DNA of 59,989 nucleotides from Thioploca sp. (GTDB taxonomy: Bacteria > Pseudomonadota > Gammaproteobacteria > Beggiatoales > Beggiatoaceae), in assembly GCA_030627125.1 (NCBI GenBank), contig DAOUSR010000003.1, forward strand, positions 1 through 59,989, written 5' to 3'. Below, in pieces: positions 37 through 21,759 of this stretch. Positions within the stretch are counted from its first letter, which is position 1. Each line of letters starts with the position of its first letter. A model generated the notes under the pieces. The model saw only the letters and a list, made by a program, of their open reading frames with translations. It did not search any database and was not told the DNA's origin. The position numbers and the translations under genes are program-made.

Positions 37-432
37 ATGATTGAACATGGCATAACAAAGATAGGTGGAGCTAAGCTACTCGGGACAATTATTTCGCCCG
101 GCCTTGCTATTTTAGTGTTAGGGGGAGTAATAGCATGGAAATTGTGGGAAAATAAACGAGAAATCCGTGGAATACGGACAGAAGTGGCAAAAAACACAGA
201 AGCTCTGAACAACCTTAGTGCTAATTTTGAAGTTTTAAGTGCTCAACAGTCTGAACGATTACCTCAGATAACGCAACAAGAATCGGAAGTGCCTCAAAAA
301 GTTAAACCGAGTACATCCGCAAGAAATATAATTAGTAAAACTTCTAAATCCTCAACCGAACCATCCTCGAAATTAGATATTTTTAAACGAATTATCGAAG
401 ATAATGTTGAATTGAGAAAGGCAATTGTTTAA
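37..432 (+). CDS. small membrane-anchored coiled-coil protein upstream of MamK-like actin
   Basis: About 131 residues. I start it at the ATG at 37, which has AAGGAAA a few bases upstream, rather than the TTG at 13. Residues about 14-36 form one hydrophobic segment (GLAILVLGGVIAW) followed by a basic stretch (KLWENKREIRG), so the C-terminal part is probably cytoplasmic. Next comes a short coiled-coil-like region (EVAKNTEALNNLSANF), a Ser/Thr/Pro/Gln-rich linker, and a charged terminal helix (KLDIFKRIIEDN). I do not recognise the family. It lies 41 bases before the actin gene on the same strand, so an operon is likely. A role as membrane anchor or positioning partner of the filament is inference only. 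Confidence 0.7.
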   Translation: MIEHGITKIGGAKLLGTIISPGLAILVLGGVIAWKLWENKREIRGIRTEVAKNTEALNNLSANFEVLSAQQSERLPQITQQESEVPQKVKPSTSARNIISKTSKSSTEPSSKLDIFKRIIEDNVELRKAIV

Positions 433-473
433 GCTTAATCTATATTTTACTTAACTATTTAGGAATAAAAATA

Positions 474-1481
474 ATGTCTGAAATTTTTCATATTGGAATT
501 GATTTGGGAACCAGCCAAACTTCCATTGCAACTTCAACTGGTAAACGCTTTACAACTACAACTTGTGTTGGTTATGCCAAAGATGTTATTGCAAGAAAAA
601 GATTTGGTAAAGACCATCTGCTTGGAGAAGAAGCCTTAGAAAATCGACTGTCTTTGGATATGGTTTGGCCATTAGCAGATGGAGTTATTTGCGAAGAAGA
701 TAGAGCACTTGAAGCAACAGGACTGATTCTTAGGCATATTATTGCTGAAAGCCTTGCAGAAAAACAAGAAAACGATAAATTATATGTCGCAATAGGCGTA
801 CCTGCTCAAGCAAGCATTAACAATAAAAAAGCAATCATTGATGTAACTAAAGATTTCATTGATAAAATCATTATTGTTAGTGAGCCATTTTCGGTAGCTT
901 ATTCCATTAACCGTTTTGATGAATGTCTTATTGTTGATATTGGTGGCGGCACTACTGATTTATGTCGTATGCATGGCTCTATACCTGATGAGGAAGATCA
1001 AGAAACTCTGAAATATGCCGGCAATTTTCTGGATGATGAGTTAGCGAAAGCCATTCTGGAAAAATTTCCAGAGGTTCAACTTACTCCTAAGATTATAAGA
1101 AACATAAAGGAAAAATACGGTTATGTCTCTGAAGTTTCTGAATTGGTTAAAGTTAAATTGACCAAACGAGGCATCCCGGCTGAATATAATATTACTGAGA
1201 TTCTGCGGGAAAGTTGTTTGAAACTAGCAAATCCTATCAGTAAAGCTATACAAGAATTAGTAGGTAGCTTTGATCCTGATTTTCAAGAAAAACTGCGTAA
1301 TAACATTATTATTGCCGGTGGTGGTTCTAGGCTTAAAGGAATAGACATCGCTATAGAAAAAAGTCTTGATGCATATGGTGGAGGAGATGCGATTTGTGTT
1401 CGGGATGCGGAACATTGCGGTAGTGTGGGAGCATTAAAGATGTGCATGGAAATGCCGGATGAGTATTGGGAAAAAATCTAG
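474..1481 (+). CDS. mamK-like: MamK-like bacterial actin (filament-forming ATPase)
   Basis: 335 residues, the usual length for MamK (about 345). The actin ATPase signatures are present: phosphate-1 loop GIDLGTSQTS (residues 8-17), phosphate-2 loop VDIGGGTTD (about 154-162) and the adenosine loop AGGGSR (about 281-286). Many intervening stretches recall magnetotactic MamK: a DGV segment near residue 64, IGVPAQAS, VSEPF, a P-x-x-E-D-Q stretch after the phosphate-2 loop, and a terminal LPxxYW-like ending (MPDEYW). MamK filaments align magnetosomes, but homologues occur outside magnetotactic bacteria. No other magnetosome gene is visible here, so the cargo is unknown. The start ATG at 474 has a weak upstream AGGAA. 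Confidence 0.85.
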   Translation: MSEIFHIGIDLGTSQTSIATSTGKRFTTTTCVGYAKDVIARKRFGKDHLLGEEALENRLSLDMVWPLADGVICEEDRALEATGLILRHIIAESLAEKQENDKLYVAIGVPAQASINNKKAIIDVTKDFIDKIIIVSEPFSVAYSINRFDECLIVDIGGGTTDLCRMHGSIPDEEDQETLKYAGNFLDDELAKAILEKFPEVQLTPKIIRNIKEKYGYVSEVSELVKVKLTKRGIPAEYNITEILRESCLKLANPISKAIQELVGSFDPDFQEKLRNNIIIAGGGSRLKGIDIAIEKSLDAYGGGDAICVRDAEHCGSVGALKMCMEMPDEYWEKI

Positions 1482-20517: not shown

Positions 20518-21759
20518 ATGGGTAAACCAATGCATAGTACTCCGATGCTAGATGAGTTGGAAAGCGGGCCTTGGCCTAGCTTTATCACTGGCATTAAGCG
20601 TCTTGCTACAGATGAAGGTAAACCTTATCAAGGTATGATGGTTGACCTGCTGGGTCAATTAGAACATTCTTATAAAACCCGTAAAGGTTATTGGAAAGGC
20701 GGCACTGTAGGCGTTATCGGTTATGGTGGTGGAGTTATTCCACGTTTTTCTGAAGTTGCAAAAGACTATCCAGAATCTAAAGAATTCCATACTTTACGCA
20801 TTATGCCACCACCGGGAATGCATTATACTACCAAACTGTTGCGTGATTTTTGTGATGTTTGGGAAAAACACGGTTCTGGTTTGATAGCTTTACACGGTCA
20901 AAGTGGCGATATTATGCTACAAGGTACTACCAGTGATAATATTCAACCCTGTTTTGATGAATTAAATGAAATGGGATTTGATATGGGTGGTGCTGGTCCA
21001 GCAGTTCGTACTGGTATGTCATGTGTAGGTGCGGCTCGTTGTGAACAATCCTGTACTAATGAACAGAAAACATTACGGATGTTAGTAAACACCTATATTG
21101 ATGATATGCATCGTCCAGCCCTGCCTTACAAGTTTAAATTTAAGGTGTCTGGTTGCCCTAATGATTGTATGAATTCAATCACTAGAGCTGACATGGCAAT
21201 CATTGGTACTTGGCGTGACGATATGAAAGTCGACCAAGATGAAGTTAAGGCATTCGTTGCTGAAAAAGGTCGAAAATATGTAGTTGATAGCGTAATTTCT
21301 CGTTGTCCTACTAATGCGTTATCGCTCAATGATGATAACAGTTTAGATGTTGATAATCGGAGTTGTGTGCGTTGTATGCATTGCATTAACGTAATGACTA
21401 AAGCTTTATCGGTTGGTGATGATAAAGGTGTAACAATTCTGATGGGTGGTAAACGTACTTTAAAAATCGGTGACTTAATGGGTACTGTTGTGGTACCATT
21501 TATGAAGTTAGAAACCGAAGATGATTACGATAAGTTGAATGAAATTGCTGGTAACACCATTGAATTCTTTGCTGAAAATGCTTTAGAACATGAGCGTACT
21601 GGTGAAATGATTGAAAGAATTGGTCTGGTTGAATTCATAGAAGGAATTGGTTTAGAAGTTGATCCTAATATGATTTCCCAACCACGTCAAAGTTCTTATA
21701 TTAGAATGGACGATTGGGATCAAGAAGCCCAAAAATGGCAGGACCGTAAAGCTGCTTAA
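20518..21759 (+). CDS. dsrA: dissimilatory sulfite reductase alpha subunit (oxidative type)
   Basis: 413 residues from the ATG at 20518, with AAAGGAG 9 bases upstream; a TTG nine bases earlier is not favoured. The siroheme-[4Fe-4S] ligand region reads CVGAARCEQSC and GCPNDCMNS, and the inserted ferredoxin domain has CPTNAL and CVRCMHC. With DsrB it forms the cytoplasmic siroheme enzyme that oxidises persulfide sulfur to sulfite in sulfur oxidisers. It is the first gene of the cluster. An AT-rich 200-base region upstream contains a possible promoter (TATACT near 20468). Confidence 0.96.
   Translation: MGKPMHSTPMLDELESGPWPSFITGIKRLATDEGKPYQGMMVDLLGQLEHSYKTRKGYWKGGTVGVIGYGGGVIPRFSEVAKDYPESKEFHTLRIMPPPGMHYTTKLLRDFCDVWEKHGSGLIALHGQSGDIMLQGTTSDNIQPCFDELNEMGFDMGGAGPAVRTGMSCVGAARCEQSCTNEQKTLRMLVNTYIDDMHRPALPYKFKFKVSGCPNDCMNSITRADMAIIGTWRDDMKVDQDEVKAFVAEKGRKYVVDSVISRCPTNALSLNDDNSLDVDNRSCVRCMHCINVMTKALSVGDDKGVTILMGGKRTLKIGDLMGTVVVPFMKLETEDDYDKLNEIAGNTIEFFAENALEHERTGEMIERIGLVEFIEGIGLEVDPNMISQPRQSSYIRMDDWDQEAQKWQDRKAA

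Follow-up and report, generated by a model that had tools for sequence, protein, structure and literature searches.

The contig analysed here opens with a two-gene locus in which a gene for a small membrane protein precedes a gene for a MamK-like actin. The pair is conserved, linked and co-occurring in relatives, and the short motif that ends the membrane protein recurs beside MamK-type actins far over background. We propose that the locus probably encodes a filament of the actin Bbp and a membrane tether whose terminal motif docks on that filament. With somewhat less confidence, we consider that a short helix of approximate form [KR]..hL..[IV][VFY].xN..L[RKQ] serves generally, in at least three phyla, to dock varied devices on MamK-superfamily filaments.

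The window, that is, the whole stretch of DNA analysed, comprises 59,989 bases of contig G000:C82 from its base 1; the genome is 3.28 Mb and 84.9% complete. The features discussed are the following.

37..432, + strand: partner gene, encoding a 131-aa single-pass membrane protein with a coiled coil, a Ser/Pro linker and a C-terminal motif helix
76..132, + strand: predicted transmembrane helix, partner residues 14-32 (Kyte-Doolittle mean 2.24)
370..420, + strand: C-terminal motif helix KLDIFKRIIEDNVELRK, partner residues 112-128, the proposed filament-docking peptide
474..1481, + strand: Bbp actin, 335 aa, MamK-like (379.6 bits to the MamK model; Bbp clade)
20548-21750 of the window: dsrA (579.6 bits)

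Both open reading frames are present at the positions given by an earlier note: 37-432 (+) codes for 131 aa and 474-1481 (+) for 335 aa. The genes lie head to tail with 41 bases between the partner stop and the actin start, and a Shine-Dalgarno-like AAAGGA or AGGA is located 5' of each start. The partner gene starts only 36 bases from the contig end, where the readable sequence stops. A scan for promoters and terminators performed no better than on shuffled sequences. Just 3' of the actin gene, at 1504-1634, is an imperfect, MITE-like palindrome of ~120 bases, present as a single copy in the window; its terminal inverted repeats, AATGCCATTAAGTTAAG ... CTTAACTTAATGGCATT, are flanked by AACCTAGAG repeats. 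The earlier note took the host for a dsr sulfur oxidiser, and the dsrA gene agrees with this. Because dsrA is in the window and a Thioploca genome of the same genus is available, the host can fairly be taken for one of the large, Beggiatoaceae-type sulfur oxidisers.

The actin matches the MamK model NF040964 of NCBIfam over residues 6-335 (E 1.2e-113) and the solved MamK structures (E 8e-79), in accordance with the earlier description of it as MamK-like. Its score is 379.6 bits at a cut-off of 400. Of the related bacterial actins BeeR and MreB, BeeR scores 197 bits as against 380 for MamK, and MreB scores 75; a separate MreB-type match is present in the same genome (G000:C90). The protein is 79% identical to a Desulfonema magnum protein, 80% to one of Thiomargarita and 75% to one of Thioploca. 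Identity drops in a step, from 67-81% for the Beggiatoaceae and Desulfonema proteins to 36-40% for the high-scoring MamK-like proteins of Desulfobacterota.

Geelhoed et al. 2023 described 'big bacteria protein' (Bbp) from hosts without magnetosomes, namely Electrothrix gigas, Beggiatoa, Thioploca, Thiomargarita and Desulfonema, and predicted a MamK-like structure for it (PMC10580974). The published tree included sequences down to 65% similarity, Bbp was found alongside MamK in Ca. Magnetomorum and Magnetoglobus, and in Electrothrix gigas the genes after bbp encode a hypothetical and a Kelch-like protein (PMC10580974). The actin clade and the hosts are the same here, and no magnetosome MamB reaches its cut-off here. 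Judged by its sequence, the protein at 474-1481 is Bbp, not MamK, and is thus an actin already known; this identity was assessed against the listed hosts Desulfonema, Thiomargarita and Thioploca.

In two maximum-likelihood trees, the Bbp group forms a single clade (99/99 and 99/100), separated from MreB at 100/100. The branching order among the MamK-type groups is weakly supported, and Bbp is neither placed with the MamK of magnetotactic bacteria (MTB) nor excluded from it. The earlier note had linked the protein to the MamK branch; the trees put it in the Bbp clade, a clade of its own among MamK-type actins. A scan of 84,980 species yields 18 loci. Full-length copies at 70-80% identity are present in 14 of them, from Thiotrichaceae/Beggiatoaceae, Desulfonema magnum and other Desulfobacterota, and a frameshift splits one further Desulfobacterales copy. 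Within its own family, 20 of 43 genomes carry Bbp.

It is very improbable that the actin is a true MamK belonging to a magnetosome island outside the window, as the earlier note had considered. The score lies near the cut-off and the contig ends at the partner, both of which would fit such an island. Against it, Bbp is a separate clade, two genomes (G088 and G550) contain both Bbp and MamK, and the neighbours seen at other Bbp loci are not mam genes. In addition, MamB falls below its curated cut-off in all 43 family genomes, including the genome studied here (85% complete), in line with the earlier remark that no other mam gene is visible. A plasmid-segregation actin of the ParM kind is harder still to credit: a weak, sub-cut-off match to the Pfam ParM model (E 0.012) is countered by a clear MamK-type fold and sequence. 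Searches for a plasmid origin, in 72,556 plasmids, and for a phage origin returned distant matches only (at most ~27% identity), and most of the annotated plasmid matches to the actin are named rod-shape proteins.

The cut-off of NF040964 cuts through the Bbp clade (365-401 bits), and one Desulfobacterota Bbp, at 401.4 bits, exceeds it; the same cut-off admits amidase-linked and planctomycete actins. Therefore, a 'MamK' annotation is not evidence of magnetosomes. A desulfobacterotal locus (L105:7777-9962, genome G110) carries two adjoining, divergent MamK-type actins (359 and 406 bits), one of which groups weakly with Magnetospirillum MamK; the pair has no upstream motif gene.

The partner contains one strong hydrophobic helix, residues 14-32. 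Five K/R residues follow this helix and two precede it, so the C-terminus is probably cytoplasmic; the topology signal of Bbp partners is weak in several members. Across 16 aligned relatives, the C-terminal helix keeps K112, N123 and R127 without exception and L126 in nearly all. A membrane-anchored partner with one membrane helix and a charged terminal helix, as the earlier note had described it, is thus recovered, and the charged helix is likely to be the filament contact. Taken as a whole, the earlier interpretation holds for a MamK-like actin with a membrane-anchored partner in a non-magnetotactic sulfur oxidiser, and finds no support for membership of the MamK branch proper.

Searches of the partner against Pfam, NCBIfam and PHROGs give nothing over the cut-offs. 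Partner homologues, 19-43% identical (alignment A3), lie directly upstream of Bbp at most gammaproteobacterial loci and at one Desulfobacterales locus. Across the 43-genome family, the partner is present in 19 of 20 genomes with Bbp (17 by strict HMM match and two by adjacency with the motif) versus one of 23 others (Fisher p 5e-10, or 4e-8 with strict matches only). The single Bbp genome without a partner, G033, has Bbp at a contig end. The linkage in relatives, which the earlier note had singled out as a check, is present, and within the family actin and partner tend to occur in the same genomes.

Some copies of the locus are degraded. At L017 the partner reading frame lacks the motif and the actin is frameshifted. 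L019:2365-2942, in the same-genus genome G012, matches window bases 1-539 at 97% identity but is a decayed pair: the actin homology ends after ~45 residues, and an internal stop interrupts the partner. G012 also carries an intact Bbp on another contig (L007). Genome G036 has three copies of the Bbp locus, on contigs C1, C18 and C22 (L109, L110), two of them near contig ends. The partner frame is split in all three and at least one actin is broken, which suggests an element that is repeated or in decay, or else an artefact of assembly.

The C-terminal motif of the partner is roughly K..hL..IV.DN..LR. A strict pattern, [LFMI]..[LIVMA][IVLMA].[DEASN]N..[LFI]R, was searched in six frames over 915 kb of loci, some of which overlap, so that not all matches are independent. 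Of its 54 matches, 53 fall in the gene immediately preceding a MamK-type actin or a broken copy of that actin. The motif-bearing upstream proteins are otherwise unrelated to each other. Those of the Desulfonema type have a receiver domain, then a coiled coil, then the motif. At Desulfobacterota loci, a coiled-coil protein with the motif precedes MamK; in the one such cluster scanned (L096), the neighbours match the MamM/MamB, MamN and MamE models, all under the cut-offs.

In a third group of MamK-type actins, from Desulfobacterota and Gammaproteobacteria, the gene before the actin encodes a membrane-anchored N-acetylmuramoyl-L-alanine amidase (Pfam Amidase_3, E ~1e-46). Here the motif is at the N-terminus, in a form like K.AILRG.Y.DNLR, and it is cytoplasmic by the positive-inside rule; the motif would therefore be on the actin's side from either end of the protein. 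The amidase, a single-pass periplasmic protein, and the actin form two-gene operons at L099, L100, L101 and L104 (Desulfobacterota) and at L122, L123 and L124 (Gammaproteobacteria). These operons look like an actin positioning a cell-wall hydrolase.

In Planctomycetota, the upstream proteins also end in the motif, some with two to three tandem copies, e.g. LAGLVQENAKLR or LAGLVRENQALR, set in Gly-rich linkers (e.g. L106:1-444, L172, L151, L155). MamK-type actins occur in 140 of 392 sampled Planctomycetota genomes, often two per genome.

Two narrow patterns, fixed before new lineages were fetched, match nine of 62 new loci (two Bbp, seven planctomycete). They are too strict because a position that is V or I in Bbp partners is often Y or F in the amidase and planctomycete versions. 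A looser pattern, h..hh..N..h, adopted afterwards and checked against shuffles and other open reading frames (ORFs), matches 39 of the 62. On non-redundant sets it is found at 22 of 30 Bbp loci (2.8 expected from shuffling), 23 of 28 planctomycete loci (1.2 expected; four more seen by another screen), 11 of 16 amidase-type loci (2.6 expected) and 12 of 13 Desulfobacterota MamK loci (1.3 expected; for one of the 12, the matching protein is unrelated and has the motif at its wrong end). Upstream of two other MamK groups it occurs at three of 12 loci, and upstream of gammaproteobacterial MTB MamK with MamJ-like neighbours at none of four.

Overall, 69 of 104 upstream ORFs carry a terminal motif, versus 46 of 1174 (3.9%) other ORFs in the same loci; shuffling gives 4.5 of 104, and ORFs around mreB give six of 133. 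Five Desulfobacterota Bbp genes lack a motif neighbour (D. magnum G043, G044, G046, G081 and G088). As an independent test, these genomes were searched with the receiver-type protein; each of the five encodes it elsewhere, every time with the motif at its end. In 11 genomes, a search with a motif profile finds only partner-family proteins below E 1e-5. Therefore, as far as this profile can tell, one genome does not seem to hold many different plugs.

At some loci the partner and the actin share a frame. There, an in silico single chain can be built from the partner end, the linker and the actin, with the intervening stops read as Gly. We folded two such chains with AlphaFold from alignments of 46 and 38 rows. 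In the model of L038 (Bbp type; pTM 0.82), the motif helix spans residues 35-53 with pLDDT ~93 and the linker has ~40. In that of L072 (Desulfobacterota MamK type; pTM 0.81), the motif helix spans 35-54 with pLDDT 92-96 and the linker has 33-41. Since a confident motif helix adjoins a disordered linker, the models suggest that the motif helix docks on the actin. The actin part of the L038 model (residues 85-418) fits the MamK filament subunit 5ljv with Z 42.7 and rmsd 1.3 over 324 residues. Residues common to the actins of the four motif-bearing groups, e.g. L59, H167, F270, E295 and M327, could serve as leads for the docking face, but shared ancestry could account for them.

The main null reading is that the terminal helix is purely the oligomerisation tip of a coiled coil, GCN4-like (h..hh..N..L with a buried Asn), and that its link to the actin is only operonic. 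The motif spacing does match a heptad with Asn at position a, and in Bbp partners the motif does follow a coiled coil. We nevertheless regard this reading as improbable. The sequence on either side of the amidase motif and of the tandem planctomycete copies is Gly-rich or does not fit a heptad. The motif goes with MamK-type actins rather than with the genes around mreB, and the true coiled-coil segment before the motif reaches pLDDT of only 54-74 in the single-chain models, which contain no dimer partner, as against 92-96 for the motif.

The main alternative keeps the motif bound to the actin and makes the partner a regulator of Bbp assembly, such as a membrane-located nucleator, capper or disassembly factor. 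The linkage and motif evidence is the same for such a regulator as for a tether, and the receiver domain of the Desulfonema-type partner suggests control by a signal. The variety of devices (membrane anchor, amidase, tandem-motif protein) fits an adaptor better, and we judge regulation as the main role to be unlikely, though less so than a coiled-coil tip. Regulation is compatible with tethering, and the two could coexist.

We thus favour the tether. Bbp would polymerise into filaments, as its fold and family suggest. The partner, held in the membrane by its single helix and probably dimerised through its coiled coil, would expose its C-terminal amphipathic helix, KLDIFKRIIEDNVELRK, on the cytoplasmic side for docking on Bbp; we infer both the binding and the orientation. 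The transmembrane helix would then keep the filament at a membrane, for which the cytoplasmic membrane, the vacuolar membrane and the sulfur-globule envelope are candidates; sulfur globules or vesicles, suggested in the earlier note, may be the cargo. In other lineages, the same peptide would be carried by a receiver-domain protein, a soluble coiled-coil protein beside magnetosome MamK, a membrane-anchored periplasmic amidase or a tandem-motif protein, the filament acting as a common rail and the motif as the plug.

Several known systems resemble the pair in part. Bbp shares with MamK its fold and filament-subunit shape, known here by prediction, and the gene upstream of mamK in Desulfobacterota also ends in the motif; it differs from MamK in identity (36-40%), in its separate clade and in the lack of magnetosome genes here. 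RodZ is a single-pass membrane protein that binds the actin MreB. MamJ is an acidic linker of MamK to the magnetosome in Magnetospirillum (PMC9512821, PMC10653835), and resembles the partner in lying directly upstream of an actin gene and in its proposed linker role; the MamJ-like upstream proteins of gammaproteobacterial MTB, unlike the partner, are without the motif. Russell et al. 2025 found by two-hybrid assay that Mad coiled-coil proteins of deep-branching MTB interact with MamK, Mad25 with all tested (PMC12748827). A motif-bearing coiled-coil gene precedes MamK here; no motif is mentioned in that paper.

Bbp and MamK are known. Apparently new are the partner in the membrane, the terminal motif common to the upstream proteins, the pairing of amidase with actin, and the planctomycete forms. 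The text of PMC10580974 contains neither the membrane partner nor the terminal motif, and none of the four was found in the literature searched, outside which most subscription journals lie; no paper in it names an amidase together with a MamK-type actin.

That the motif recurs next to Bbp, to Desulfobacterota MamK and to the amidase-linked and planctomycete actins provides candidates and residues to mutate, and points to a common means by which membranes, magnetosome proteins or cell-wall enzymes are plugged into MamK-type filaments. If this is true, the motif proteins would be the missing MamJ equivalents of magnetotactic Desulfobacterota. Bbp has been proposed to matter for giant cells, with no partner known in these hosts, and a candidate membrane tether is now supplied. 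The motif would then join Bbp to a membrane anchor in giant sulfur bacteria, link receiver proteins to it in Desulfonema and tether amidases to actin elsewhere.
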